From Chlorobium sp. (GTDB lineage Bacteria > Bacteroidota > Chlorobiia > Chlorobiales > Chlorobiaceae): a stretch of 64,000 nt of DNA. The position numbers and the translations under genes were made by a program. A model generated the notes under the pieces. It did not search any database, was not told where the DNA came from, and saw only the letters and a program-made list of their open reading frames with translations. Location of the stretch: positions 252,849 through 316,848 of the forward strand of contig SZXW01000002.1 in assembly GCA_005862285.1 (NCBI GenBank), written 5' to 3'. Positions 23,869 through 30,191 of this stretch are shown piece by piece; the stretch's first letter is position 1; each line of letters begins with the position of its first letter.

Positions 23869-23946
23869 TAAATGTTTAATATAAAATGTATGCCGAAAGG
23901 CAACATTATAATTTGTTGTAGTAAGTTAAAAACGGAGAATCTTATT

Positions 23947-24495
23947 ATGAAAATGACAAAAGCATTAGTGGCAGCTGGTCTGGCAGTTATGCTCGGCGCA
24001 GGCACTGCATCCGCAGAGGATGGAAAAATCGGCCTTGGTTACCAGGGTGTCTTTGGTGGTGATCCATTGAATCTCAATGGCGTAAGTGCCCGTTACTGGT
24101 TCAATAAGAACGTGGGTGGAGAACTGAACGTATTTTATGGTGCAGTTGGTGCTTCACGCAATAGCGTTAATGTTGGCAATGCCGATCTGTTCCTCGGAAC
24201 AGCAAAAGTGCTCTATGCACCTGTTGTAAAACAGAACAGCAAGTTCTATGTCGGTCTTGAAGGCGGTTACGGTTCTGTATCCGGTGACTGGATTCCTTCC
24301 AGTGTGGATGTGACACTCTGGACCGTCACTCCTTTCATGGGTGCTGAATATTCTTTCGCAGGCCTTCCTGAGCTCGGACTGAACTTCGAAGTCGGCTACA
24401 GAATGCACCACGTTGACACAAGTTGGCCAGGTACTGACTTGAACATACACGTGAACGGCACATTCGTGTCTCTTGGTGCTCACTACTACCTTTAA
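23947..24495 (+). CDS. Small outer-membrane beta-barrel protein
   Basis: About 182 residues. The signal peptide (MKMTKALVAAGLAVMLGAGTASA) is cleaved before EDGK. The mature protein has alternating hydrophobic strands with glycine and aromatic residues (LGYQGVFGG, ARYWFNKNVGGELNVFYG, KFYVGLEGGYG, LGLNFEVGYRMHH) and ends in LGAHYYL, an aromatic C-terminal strand typical of outer-membrane barrels. It fits an eight-stranded OmpX/OmpW-like barrel. I take the ATG at 23947 because GGAGA lies 8 nt upstream. Its leader is AT-rich with palindromes, so it may be regulated. Specific function unknown. Confidence 0.8.
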   Translation: MKMTKALVAAGLAVMLGAGTASAEDGKIGLGYQGVFGGDPLNLNGVSARYWFNKNVGGELNVFYGAVGASRNSVNVGNADLFLGTAKVLYAPVVKQNSKFYVGLEGGYGSVSGDWIPSSVDVTLWTVTPFMGAEYSFAGLPELGLNFEVGYRMHHVDTSWPGTDLNIHVNGTFVSLGAHYYL

Positions 24496-24538: not shown

Positions 24539-24632
24539 GATCAGAAAAGCCCGGTTTTTGCCGGGCTTTTTTATTATGCAATCTGATGCCGATCGAAGGT
24601 GATGCAGGATTTCCAGTTCCGTTTCATTCATT
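24539..24632. repeat. 94-bp direct repeat, left copy (IS target duplication)
   Basis: This stretch recurs at 26307-26400 with one mismatch (C at 24613 against A at 26381). It contains the barrel gene's terminator. The two copies abut the ends of the insertion sequence, so they read as a target-site duplication of unusual length. IS1634 and IS1549 are known to make long, variable duplications. Confidence 0.88.
24545..24573 (+). terminator. Terminator of the barrel gene (left copy)
   Basis: Hairpin GCCCGG-TTTTTG-CCGGGC followed by six T residues, flanked by A on the 5' side so it can work in both directions. It is about 50 bp after the barrel gene stop. An identical copy lies at 26313-26341. 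Confidence 0.85.
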
Positions 24633-24633
24633 C

Positions 24634-24646
24634 CCGAGTTGTGCCA
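24634..24646. repeat. Left terminal inverted repeat of the IS
   Basis: CCGAGTTGTGCCA; 11 of 13 positions agree with the inverse of the right end at 26294-26306. One base (24633) lies between it and the flanking direct repeat as I drew it. Confidence 0.75.
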
Positions 24647-24660
24647 GTTAGTGCCGAAAC

Positions 24661-26193
24661 TCAGAACTCAAGAAGTTGCTGAACCTCGTTTGTAAATTCG
24701 CTTGTACCCATCTGTTTGACAAAAACCTCACCGGTTCGTTCATAACAAAGATGGATTTCATGAACACGCCACAGTTCGTCCCGGATCTTTCGTAGCGAGC
24801 GCTCCGTTTTGATCTCCAGGTATTTTCCCATCATCAAGGCCATAAAACAGACGAGCATATGAGCCCTGATGGCATCTTGGGTGCGATGAAAGATCGGTCT
24901 GGCCTGCAGGTCGGATTTGCTCATACGGAACGCCTGCTCCACGTTCCAGAGATCATGATAGTAGTCGATAACAGCACTACTCGACAGCTCCTTTTCAGGG
25001 ATGTTGGTGAGATAACCTTTGATGCCAAGAAGCTTCTCTGTCTTTGCCTGAAGATCGGTATCGAAGATAAAGGGCTTGTCGGTGTCGTTGGTTTTCTTGA
25101 CAAACTTTGCCCGCCGACCGGACTCGTTTTTTTCCAGCAGGGCAAGCGCCCGTTTGACCTGTTTATCGAACTCTCGCTTGTCCTTTTTGTACCGTGACTC
25201 CGAGAACTCACAGATCATGGTGGCATGCTTTACGGCAGACTTGTAGCTGAAGCGCCGTAGAGCCTTATCGCTACGCGGCAGTGTTTTGTGAACCTGATCA
25301 ATGAAGCTCGCAGCAGTACTCGCCAAGCGAGCCCCTACGATGTAGCGGTATCCTTCATTCTCCAGTTTCAGCATGTTGTCTTTCGAGAGCATGCCCGCAT
25401 CAGCCACAATAACCGGCTTGGTTTCGCCAACACGCTCCTGAAACCGTTGAATGATCTTGAGCATCGTTTTTCCCTCGAAGGTGTTGCCCTCGAACACCTC
25501 ATGCATGACCGGAAAACCTGAACGGGTGGTAATGAGGCCAATGACGATCTGTGGTTGCATCGGCTTGTTGTCCTTGGAGAAGCCCGGCTTCTGAAAATCG
25601 TACTCCTTGAAGGATTCGAAGTACAGGGTGGTGACTTCGTACAATACCAGGCTGAACTGCTCCTGCAACTCTCCTTGAGCGGTCTTGATGGCTGCGGCTT
25701 CTATCTCCTCCTGATGCTCCAAGAGCTCTGGAAACAGGCGATAGAGGGTTCGCTTCGCATAGGTGACCTTGAAATGCAACTCAAGAAGCTCCATCGAGCG
25801 CAACTTTGATGTCGGCTCGATGATGCGCATGAGTGCCAGATCAAGATACAGTTCCGGCAAAGAGCCCAGGCCGCATTTTCGGGCACAGGCAAGCAGCGCA
25901 TTGCGGGCAAACTGATGGGTGATGCCTTCGACGCTTGATTTGTCAAGAACCGCCTTGAACAGTGATGATGAAGATGGTGTATCAGTACCAGTATTAGCGA
26001 ACAGGTTTGGCTGTCGGCAATAGGCTTCGACGTATTGTTTGGCCTCATCCAGCAACATTTCAAGCTCGTGCTCGTCGTGAGCGCTGCCAATATGCTTGAG
26101 AAAAGAACGAGCCGTTCCTTTATTCTGGACTACCTGTACGGCAGTTGCTCCAGATGCAGTCCGCACCTTTCTGATTTTCAAGTCCCCACGCAT
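24661..26193 (-). CDS. IS1634-family transposase
   Basis: A 510-residue DDE transposase of the IS4 superfamily. A conserved Asp follows a hydrophobic strand in PVIVADAGMLSKDNM, and the C-terminal signature Y-2-x-3-E-6-K is complete: Tyr412, Glu419 and Lys426 in YHDLWNVEQAFRMSK. The protein is full length without internal stops or frameshifts. Cut-and-paste or copy-out activity on the element's 13-bp ends is expected. It begins about 110 bp inside the right end of the element and ends 28 bp from the left end. No clear ribosome-binding site precedes the ATG. Confidence 0.92.
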   Translation of the reverse strand: MRGDLKIRKVRTASGATAVQVVQNKGTARSFLKHIGSAHDEHELEMLLDEAKQYVEAYCRQPNLFANTGTDTPSSSSLFKAVLDKSSVEGITHQFARNALLACARKCGLGSLPELYLDLALMRIIEPTSKLRSMELLELHFKVTYAKRTLYRLFPELLEHQEEIEAAAIKTAQGELQEQFSLVLYEVTTLYFESFKEYDFQKPGFSKDNKPMQPQIVIGLITTRSGFPVMHEVFEGNTFEGKTMLKIIQRFQERVGETKPVIVADAGMLSKDNMLKLENEGYRYIVGARLASTAASFIDQVHKTLPRSDKALRRFSYKSAVKHATMICEFSESRYKKDKREFDKQVKRALALLEKNESGRRAKFVKKTNDTDKPFIFDTDLQAKTEKLLGIKGYLTNIPEKELSSSAVIDYYHDLWNVEQAFRMSKSDLQARPIFHRTQDAIRAHMLVCFMALMMGKYLEIKTERSLRKIRDELWRVHEIHLCYERTGEVFVKQMGTSEFTNEVQQLLEF

Positions 26194-26293
26194 GGGGAGA
26201 AGATAGCATTAGTGCCAATACTCAGGAACTCGAAAATCTTAACTACAATAATATCAAGAACTTAATTTTCTTGGTCAGCGCTTTTTTAAATTT

Positions 26294-26306
26294 TGGCACA
26301 AGTCAG
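26294..26306. repeat. Right terminal inverted repeat of the IS
   Basis: TGGCACAAGTCAG on the plus strand, the inverse of the left end with two mismatches. It directly abuts the right copy of the 94-bp repeat. Confidence 0.75.
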
Positions 26307-26400
26307 GATCAGAAAAGCCCGGTTTTTGCCGGGCTTTTTTATTATGCAATCTGATGCCGATCGAAGGTGATGCAGGATTTACAGTTCCGTTTCATTCATT
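26307..26400. repeat. 94-bp direct repeat, right copy (IS target duplication)
   Basis: Second copy of 24539-24632, with one mismatch. It starts immediately after the right end of the insertion sequence and includes a second copy of the barrel gene's terminator, now between the IS and the convergent metH gene. Confidence 0.88.
26313..26341. terminator. Terminator, duplicated right copy
   Basis: Same hairpin and T run as 24545-24573. In this position it would stop transcription leaving the IS on the plus strand; the A-run on its other side could let it terminate metH on the minus strand. Confidence 0.7.
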
Positions 26401-26507: not shown

Positions 26508-29500
26508 TCAGGGTGTATAGTTCAGTACAGGAGCGAGCCATTTTTCTGCTTCCTTCACATCCATTCCTTTACGCCGGGCATAATCCTCGACCTGGTCTCT
26601 GCCTATTTTTCCGAGAATGAAATATTTCGATTCAGGATGTGCGAAGTAGAAGCCGCTCACCGAAGCGGCCGGGTTCATGGCGAAAGTTTCGGTAAGCGTC
26701 ACACCTGTTGCGGCTTCTGCATTGAGCAGGGTGAAAAGTTCGGCTTTTTCCGTATGGTCTGGACAGGCGGGGTAGCCTGGCGCAGGACGGATACCGCGGT
26801 ATGTTTCTGCTGTCAGTTCATTCGGTGTAAAGTGCTCATCCGGCGCGTAGCCCCAGAGCTCACGACGGACTTTTTCATGGAGCATCTCGGCGAAAGCTTC
26901 GGCAAGCCGGTCTGCAAGCGCCTGCGTCATGATGCGGCGGTAATCGTCATGCTCCTTTTTGAACCGCTCGAGTGTTTTTTCGATGCCGATACCGGCAGTT
27001 ACGACGAAGCACCCGATATGGTCCATGATGCCGCTATCCGTCGGTGCAATAAAATCGGCAAGAGCAAGGTTCGGTTCACCCTTTTCCTTTTTCTGCTGCT
27101 GCCGGAGGGTGTGCAGGGTAAGCTGTACTGAAGTTCGTTCCTCGTTTGTATAGACCTCGATATCGTCGCCAATGCTGTTTGCCGGGAAAATGCCTGCAAC
27201 GCCTTTTACACCGAGAAGCTGCTCTTTTTCGATCCTGTCAAGGAGGATGCCGGCGTCTTCGTAGAGTTTTTTTGCTTCCATGCCGAACTTTGCATCATCG
27301 AAAATGCCGGGAAACCTGCCGTGGAGTTCCCATGCAGCAAAAAACGGTGTCCAGTCGATATAGGGGCGAAGTTCCGCGACAGTGACATTTTCGAGAAGCG
27401 TAATGCCTGGTTTCAGCGGCTTTTGAACCGATGATGCATCGAAACCGGCAAGAAGGCGGTTGCTGCGTGCTTCATCAAGTCTGACGAACGATGCCGTAGC
27501 GTTGCGCGATGCATGGCTTTTCCTGAGCGCAGCCTGATCGGCTGCAAGATGGGCAAGGTATCCTTCCTTCAGCACCGGGTTGAGCAGGTTGCTCACGACC
27601 GGAACGCTTCGCGATGCATCGAGTACCTGCACGACCGGGCCGGAATAGACCGGAGCTATTTTCACGGCGGTATGGACTCTCGATGTGGTGGCTCCGCCGA
27701 TGAGAAGAGGGATTTTCATGCCGCGGCGTTCCATTTCGGATGCGACATGAACCATCTCGTCAAGCGAGGGAGTGATGAGGCCGCTCAGGCCTATAAGGTC
27801 GGCTTTTTCACGTTCCGCGGCATCGAGGATCTGTTCGCAGGGCATCATGACGCCGATATCGACAACGTTGTAGTTGTTGCAGGAAAGGACAACAGAGACA
27901 ATGTTTTTTCCGATGTCATGCACATCGCCCTTGACCGTTGCCAGAAGCACCTTGGCGGCAGGGCGGCTCTCTTTCTGTCCGGCTTTTTCCTCTTCGATGA
28001 AGGGGAGGAGCCAGGCGACCGAGCGTTTCATGACGCGGGCGCTTTTGACGACTTGAGGGAGAAACATTTTTCCATCGGCGAAAAGGTCGCCAATCTCGTT
28101 CATGCCGTCCATAAGCGGCCCTTCGATAACCTGGAGGGGGCTAGGGTAAAGTTGGCGGGCTTCTTCGGTATCTTCTTCGATATGATCGACAATACCCTTG
28201 ATGAGCGCATGGCGAAGCCGTTCAGCAACCGGAGCACTTCTCCATTCGGCGGCTTTCACCTCGGCTTTTTCACCGCCATCGCGGAAGGTTTCGGCGAATG
28301 AAACGAGCCGTTCAGTGGAATCTGCACGGCGGTTCAAAAGCACGTCCTCTACATGTACGAGAAGTTCGGGATCTATTTCCTTATAGATGGCAAGCTGGCC
28401 TGCATTGACGATGCCCATGTCGAGCCCGGCATGGATGGCGTGGTAGAGGAATGCGGCATGCATTGCCTCTCTGACCGGCTCATTGCCCCTGAAAGAGAAG
28501 GAGACATTGCTGATGCCGCCGGATATTTTCGCATAAGGCAGGTTTTCCTTTATCCAGCGTACCGAGCGAATGAAATCGATCGCGTAATTGTTATGCTCTT
28601 CGATACCTGTCGCGACGGTCAGCACATTCGGGTCGAAAATGATATCCTCGGGCGGGAAACCGACCTCGAGGGTGAGAATGTCGTAAGCTCTTTTGCATAT
28701 CTCGATACGGCGTTCGAAGGAGTCGGCCTGGCCCTGTTCGTCGAATGCCATGACGACGGCTGCTGCGCCGTACTGCAGGATCTTGCGGGCACGTTCCCTG
28801 AAGAGATCCTCACCTTCCTTGAGGCTGATGGAGTTCACGATGCTTTTGCCCTGTACGCACTGCAGGCCGCTTTCGATGACCAGCCATTTCGAACTGTCGA
28901 TCATGACAGGCACGCGTGAGATTTCCGGTTCGGAGGCCACGAGGTTCAGGAACTCCTTCATGACTTTTTCCGAATCGAGCATTCCTTCGTCAACATTCAC
29001 GTCGATCACCTGGGCACCGCTTTCGACCTGCTGGCGGGCGATGGAAAGGGCTTCGTCGTATTTCGATTCCTTGATGAGACGTGCGAATTTTTTCGATCCG
29101 GTCACGTTGGTGCGTTCGCCGACATTGATAAAGCCGGTGGTTGCGTTGACCCTGAGAGGTTCGAGACCTGAAAGCAACAGTTCATGGCTTTTCTCCGGTT
29201 TTCGGCGCGGTTTCAATGTTCTGACCGCTTCGGCGATCGCCATGATATGGTCAGGGGTCGTGCCGCAGCAGCCTCCGACGATGTTGACGAACCCGGACTG
29301 GGCAAATCCGGCGATCTGGGCCGCCATATATTCGGGTGAGTCGTCGTACTGGCCGAACTCGTTCGGCAGTCCGGCATTGGGGTAGACGCTGACATAGCTT
29401 TCAGCGATTCCGGCAAGGGATTCGATGAACGGACGCATCTGCTTCGAGCCGAGCGCACAGTTCAGGCCGACGCTCATGAGGTCGGGCATATGCGCGATCG

Positions 29501-30191
29501 AGATCCAGAAGGCTTCGGTGGTCTGGCCCGATAGCGTGCGTCCGCTGGCGTCCACAATGGTGCCTGAAACCATGACGGGAACCCGCCATCCGGTGGAGCT
29601 GAAAAACTCCTCTATGGCAAAAAGCGCGGCTTTGCAGTTCAGCGTATCGAACACCGTTTCAACAAGCAGCAGGTCTACGCCACCCTCCCTCAGCCCTTCG
29701 AGCTGCACGAGGTAGTTGTCGACAACTTCACGGAAGCTCACTGCGCGGTAGCCGGGGTTCGTTACGTCTGGTGAAAGCGAAAGGGTCTTGTTGGTCGGAC
29801 CTATGGAACCTGCCACGAAACGCGGTTTGGCGGGCGTACGGGCTGTATATTCGTCAGCAGCTTTCCTGGCCAGCCGGGCGGCTTCGGCATTCAGTTCCCG
29901 GACGATGCTTTCGGTATGGTAATCCGACTGGGAAATCGGGTTCGCGTTGAATGTGTTGGTCTCGATGATGTCCGAGCCGGCATCGAGAAATTCGCAGTGC
30001 AGCTCATGAATGACATCGGGACGGGTCAGGACGAGGATGTCGTTGTTGCCGAGGAGGGAGTGCGGGTGTGAAGCGAACCTTGCGCCCCGGTAATCTTCCT
30101 CCGTCAGTTTGCGGCGCTGGATCATGGTGCCCATGGCGCCGTCCAGCACGAGAATGCGTCGATCGAGCAGGTTGAAAAGTGTATCCTTCAT
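26508..30191 (-). CDS. metH: Cobalamin-dependent methionine synthase
   Basis: A full-length 1227-residue MetH that transfers a methyl group from 5-methyltetrahydrofolate to homocysteine through cobalamin. The modules are in the normal order. The homocysteine domain has its zinc cysteines in LNCALG and GGCCGTT (near 245 and 310). The pterin-binding domain begins near 355 ([19 protein letters not shown]). The cobalamin domain has [10 protein letters not shown] with the lower-ligand His, plus SGLITPS and GGATTS. The C-terminal domain is the SAM-dependent reactivation module. I see no cobalamin or SAM riboswitch in the 150 bp upstream. It is convergent with the IS and barrel gene. Confidence 0.96.

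Follow-up and report, generated by a model that had tools for sequence, protein, structure and literature searches.

The gap between two convergent genes in a Chlorobium genome, an outer-membrane beta-barrel-like gene and metH, is the site of an IS1634-family element bounded by direct repeats of more than 90 bp. Elements of this family are 1500 to 2000 bp long, have ends of the form C-----YT and typically make AT-rich target-site duplications (TSDs) of 5 to 6 bp, with IS1549 and IS1634 as exceptions (PMC2266710). We asked whether the repeat at this locus is a true TSD and, if so, how a duplication of that length could arise. The locus was analyzed within a stretch of 64,000 nucleotides, here called the window, and was compared with relatives of the element across the family.

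An IS1634-family element between convergent genes

The beta-barrel-like gene (positions 23872 to 24495, plus strand; an ORF with a weak, sub-cutoff match to an OMP model) points its 3′ end toward the element, and metH, encoding the B12-dependent methionine synthase (26508 to 30191, minus strand, by domain annotation), converges on it from the other side. The element lies between them on the minus strand. A first-pass annotation of the window, made from the sequence alone, had given it a span of 24634 to 26306; with the ends of relatives as a guide, whose repeats stop at CC...GG, we corrected this to 24633 to 26307 (1675 bp). Its termini, CCCGAGTTGTGCCAG and CCTGACTTGTGCCAA, match at 12 of 15 positions, and both ends fit the C-----YT start of the family (CCCGAGTT and CCTGACTT). 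The size and the one ORF, for 510 amino acids, likewise fall within the 1500- to 2000-bp, single-ORF range. That ORF (24661 to 26193, minus strand) encodes a transposase with a DDE_Tnp_1 domain (Pfam) that matches the IS1634-family model NF033559 at 357 bits (cutoff, 100). The family score and the genus-mates, which are Chlorobiaceae or Chlorobium records, agree with the earlier suggestion of an IS1634-family element in a green sulfur bacterium. There is a single copy of the element in the genome of the window strain.

A 93-bp target-site duplication and its empty site

The direct repeats at 24539 to 24632 and 26307 to 26400 are identical at 93 of 94 positions, a match with a chance probability of about 1e-52 per pair of positions, and the repeat unit occurs twice genome-wide, both times flanking the element. 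The first-pass annotation had described a 94-bp duplication with one mismatch. The raw match is indeed there, but the true TSD is 93 bp long, because the repeats of relatives stop exactly at CC...GG and the 94th base, a G, is common to target and element. The left copy accordingly spans 24540 to 24632 (edges G|ATCAG ... CATT|CC) and the right copy 26308 to 26400. They differ only in C at 24613 versus A at 26381, and a sister species has C, as in the left copy.

A search with the right flank among genomes of the genus turned up an empty site. In genome G039 (locus L080), a single copy of the unit separates the barrel gene from metH in an uninterrupted stretch that lacks the element, as the first-pass annotation had expected of a strain without the insertion. 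When the element and one TSD copy were removed from the window sequence, 1267 of 1432 aligned bases were identical to L080 (88%), with 5 gap columns across the junction; between the two genomes, identity was 93% for the barrel gene and 87% for the end of metH. Since a sister green sulfur bacterium has a single, element-free unit, the repeat is a real target-site duplication. The duplicated unit is 72% identical to that of the sister species over the alignable 74 bp, whereas the two 93-bp copies differ by one base, and the insertion therefore took place long after divergence from the sister species, in agreement with the earlier view that it was fairly recent.

A substituted catalytic residue in the window copy

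The transposase had been called intact. Although its reading frame is open, Glu takes the place of Asp at residue 186, the first catalytic position (D186E; codon GAA at 25636 to 25638, minus strand), which leaves the DDE triad incomplete, with D265 and E419 present. Asp occupies this column in all 31 other aligned IS1634-family proteins, from long-TSD and short-TSD elements alike, and three relatives of approximately 93 to 94% identity have GAT at codon 186. We read D186E as decay of the window copy, with its membership in the IS1634 family unaffected. DDE enzymes with such a replacement in the triad are usually inactive or severely impaired, and the window copy has therefore probably lost the ability to move by itself. 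The GAA codon may also be a sequencing error. A structure predicted from a 13-sequence alignment was unusable (mean pLDDT, 49.7), and a search of solved structures with the transposase sequence gave no match at an E value of ≤1.

Duplication lengths among relatives

Relatives were collected by family-wide searches that took in Chlorobiaceae, other Bacteroidota, one Burkholderiaceae MAG and named plasmids, and a script located their ends and measured their TSDs. This gave 31 long TSDs of 27 to 680 bp (median, 93 bp) from Chlorobiaceae, other Bacteroidota, Actinomycetota, Aliarcobacter and Burkholderiaceae. They comprise 26 discovery cases (27 to 680 bp), in which the duplicated host DNA is unrelated from case to case, two held-out cases (73 bp in G704 and 118 bp in G750) and three from further plasmids (513, 56 and 93 bp). 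The first-pass annotation had made its reading depend on other copies of the element not having short, constant duplications. Beside the 93 bp of the window element, relatives from 94% identity outward have TSDs of 127 (G059), 629 (G037), 171 (G043), 45 (G030), 49 (G035) and 34 bp (G033), never short and constant; a different element in G033 has 72 bp. The 629-bp TSD (L070) is counted with caution, as its contig ends exactly at the end of the repeat, which is expected where an assembly breaks at a repeat edge.

Farther out, we measured 80 bp in the Burkholderiaceae MAG, 75 in G173, 150 in G176, 32 in G290 and 88 in G312, as well as 102, 47, 224, 93, 27 and 93 bp in Rhodococcus, 680 bp in Aliarcobacter, 608 bp on a Mycobacterium riyadhense plasmid and 56 bp in Actinomyces oris. 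A partial repeat in the held-out genome G489 (136 bp), in which all 81 bases that could be compared before the contig end matched, stands outside the 31. Also omitted from the tabulated TSDs were L151 (a gap of N and a shortened element) and L169 and L197 (partial changes in one copy). The G+C content of the TSDs showed no clear shift from that of their flanks.

Length varies even between copies of one element, as in Persicobacter (406 and 33 bp) and in the complete genome G166, where four copies have four lengths (325, 131, 281 and 156 bp); TSD length is thus no property of an element. Two of the G166 copies, L216 and L217 (G166:C1 near 2,056,000 and 2,013,000), lie 43 kb apart in opposite orientation with their right flanks exchanged, and the 281- and 156-bp repeats are split between them. 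The swapped flanks are the footprint of a later inversion by recombination between the copies, so the long repeats date from insertion.

The 513-bp TSD, identical at 513 of 513 positions, belongs to a composite transposon on Corynebacterium faecale plasmid pCFAEC45971a (L241:3319-8670, 5352 bp), in which two direct IS1634-family copies surround tetR and two SMR transporter genes. The repeat is found at the outer ends of the composite only, with no duplication at its inner ends, which ties the duplication to the act of transposition and not to a single IS. A small ORF inside the 513-bp duplication (WP_290280054.1) is annotated on both sides of this transposon. On Aliarcobacter cryaerophilus plasmid pCNAC48 (L206:1573-4625), the 680-bp TSD takes in most of a gene for a Crp/Fnr-family regulator, leaving one full-length copy and a shorter one beyond the element.

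Four further elements that group with the long-TSD members (L072, L107, L153 and L154) have good ends and no direct repeat in several kilobases of flank; rearrangement, deletion or composite units could account for them. An A still adjoins most of their ends.

One branch of the family makes long duplications

Short TSDs (5 to 7 bp) were measured for nine elements, seven from other Bacteroidota and two from Alicyclobacillus and Sulfitobacter plasmids. They are in line with published 6-bp cases, ISPfe2 of Paracoccus (PMC3281130) and ISGka5 of Geobacillus (PMC8024623), which share family, size class and a DDE transposase with the window element but have constant TSDs of 5 to 6 bp. In a maximum-likelihood tree of 54 transposases, of which 23 rows had long and 9 had short TSDs, one branch separated all 23 long rows from all 9 short ones, so that the trait requires one change (0 of 500 shuffles scored as low). 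Support for the dividing branch is moderate (83/96; present in 84% of bootstrap trees), and the short side consists of only nine measured elements, some of them on long branches. The two sides can also be told apart by a motif downstream of the first catalytic Asp, TTLYFE, which was present in 22 of the 23 long-TSD rows and none of the 9 short-TSD rows. That long, variable duplication is an inherited trait of one large branch of IS1634-family transposases is thus well supported, and what had been an oddity of two elements becomes the property of a branch recognizable by sequence.

A half-site motif at the duplication edges

We read the two edges of every TSD inward, each along its own strand, as the 5′ end that is joined to a 3′ end of the transposon. 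Edges from nonactinobacterial hosts followed the pattern (G/C)|ARR, with G or C at −1 in 69%, A at +1 in 85% and a purine at +2 and +3 in 92% and 82%, respectively. ARR was present at 26 of 39 nonactinobacterial discovery half-sites, whereas 2000 background draws from these loci gave 3.2 on average and never more than 10. A held-out set of separately gathered elements, likewise from outside Actinomycetota and including some without a visible TSD, had A at +1 in 21 of 23 half-sites (mean, 6.4, and maximum, 14, in 5000 draws). An initial A combined with a final T was seen in 14 of 20 nonactinobacterial TSDs. The motif is weak in actinobacterial half-sites (ARR in 3 of 12). Since every edge has a distal copy that lies in host DNA, apart from the element, the motif is part of the target sequence.

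Origin of the long duplications

In DDE transposition, the spacing of the two points of strand transfer sets the length of the TSD. The duplications, their lengths, the motif at both edges in nonactinobacterial members and the restriction to one clade are direct observations. From them we infer that the two ends are joined independently or sequentially and that a repair step follows. A similar half-site at both edges, at spacings of 27 to 680 bp, is best fitted by a separate half-site for each end on opposite strands: each transposon 3′ end would join its own 5′-(G/C)|ARR, the distance between the joins would be left unfixed, from about 27 to about 680 bp, and repair synthesis with strand displacement, starting at both 3′ ends of the target, would copy the intervening stretch, giving the duplication. 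For the window, we put at roughly three in four the joint reading of a single IS1634-family insertion with a 93-bp TSD, clade-inherited variability of length, one half-site per end, copying by repair and a copy that is now probably immobile. What counts against this reading is the weak motif in actinobacterial members, the moderate support for the long/short branch with its nine short-TSD elements, and the long-clade elements that lack a visible duplication. Whether the model extends to the whole branch, such that DDE transposases in at least four phyla have lost the fixed spacing of strand transfer, their ends independently picking (G/C)|ARR half-sites and composites moving likewise, we regard as evenly balanced. 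If it does, insertions would duplicate up to whole parts of genes and might leave the target gene working.

The main rival is that the strands were already apart where the element landed, at a replication fork, a transcription bubble or an R-loop, and that TSD length records the unwound stretch. Lengths of 27 to 680 bp are within the range of unwound or single-stranded stretches, and three TSDs, that of the window included, hold terminators, where polymerase stops. An unwound stretch alone would not dictate a common short motif at both edges, however, and terminators are absent from the other 23 of 26 TSDs; we consider this account unlikely, if still credible.

The terminator itself calls for comment. 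According to the first-pass annotation, the duplicated segment includes the Rho-independent terminator of the barrel gene, and by folding we found the hairpin in both copies, at 24545 to 24572 on the left and, on the metH side, at 26313 to 26340. Folding was used because a simple terminator scan missed the window hairpin. The predicted fold has an energy of −24.5 kcal/mol (z, −5.86) on the strand of the barrel gene and −16.4 kcal/mol (z, −4.28) on the minus, metH strand, and the stem is kept in the sister species through changed pairs. As the terminator is predicted to fold on both strands, each convergent gene would retain one at its 3′ end after the insertion, with the element in between. 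The earlier proposal that the terminators insulate the element from metH and the barrel gene is plausible on this predicted anatomy.

It is doubtful that the element targets terminators or palindromes and that copying of the terminator was selected for insulation. The ability of the window terminator to serve each neighbor would suit this idea, as would the number of TSDs with terminator-like structures (3 of 26, compared with 0.54 expected; P = 0.014). The large majority that lack one and an edge motif that is a purine start and not a hairpin tell against it, and A tracts beside terminators, combined with a preference for gaps between genes, could yield a small excess. A terminator as a constant target is ruled out by the same count, and its presence in the window TSD mostly reflects the place at which this copy inserted, not a general rule.

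Less probable still is a repeat that formed secondarily, whether element copies recombined or an ordinary TSD of 5 to 6 bp expanded. Copies do recombine, as the exchanged flanks in G166 attest, but the repeats abut both ends exactly even in single-copy genomes such as that of the window strain, and the long-clade elements have no 5- to 6-bp TSD at their CC...GG ends, such TSDs being found on the other branch. Finally, insertion or recombination between the members of a preexisting tandem or dispersed pair can be rejected, given the single unit in the sister genome, its absence from elsewhere in the genome of the window strain and some 30 relatives whose long repeats differ from one to the next and adjoin the element ends exactly.

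Relation to known elements

Long, variable TSDs were already known from two elements. According to the accounts given in PMC2266710 and PMC1798306, IS1634 of Mycoplasma mycoides subsp. mycoides SC produces long, variable direct repeats on insertion (Vilei et al. 1999), and PMC2266710 gives the same for long direct repeats upon insertion of IS1549 in Mycobacterium smegmatis (Plikaytis et al. 1998). The TSDs of the two range from 8 to 514 bp, and the 2008 family review noted that a mechanistic model for them had yet to be proposed (PMC2266710). IS1634 shares an IS1634-family transposase and a long, variable TSD with the window element but is diverged and comes from another phylum; we liken the two by description. 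IS1549 is likewise compared by description of its long TSD. The M. riyadhense plasmid element with the 608-bp TSD groups with the long branch of the window element, and the actinobacterial members, from the group of hosts to which that of IS1549 belongs, are those with a weak ARR edge motif.

The window element, whose 93-bp TSD departs from the AT-rich 5 to 6 bp of typical members, is a new long-TSD element of the IS1634 type. None of the open papers that we found describes the clade rule, the pairing of half-site motifs or the 513-bp TSD of the composite. The edge motif offers a way into the 25-year-old puzzle of how long TSDs originate, and it yields a prediction that can be tested, namely (G/C)|ARR half-sites that occur in pairs on opposite strands and face inward. 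Our results also suggest that element finders that expect only short TSDs would misplace the ends of long-TSD elements and overlook composites like the 5352-bp unit. Long TSDs can spare the target gene, and homologous recombination between them could cleanly remove the element.

M. mycoides PG1 has about 60 copies of IS1634. Its genome also has two 13-kb direct repeats about 1.8 kb apart, a spacing near the length of one IS1634 (PMC1798306). Ordinary recombination between IS copies can explain them, an extreme duplication being a conceivable alternative.
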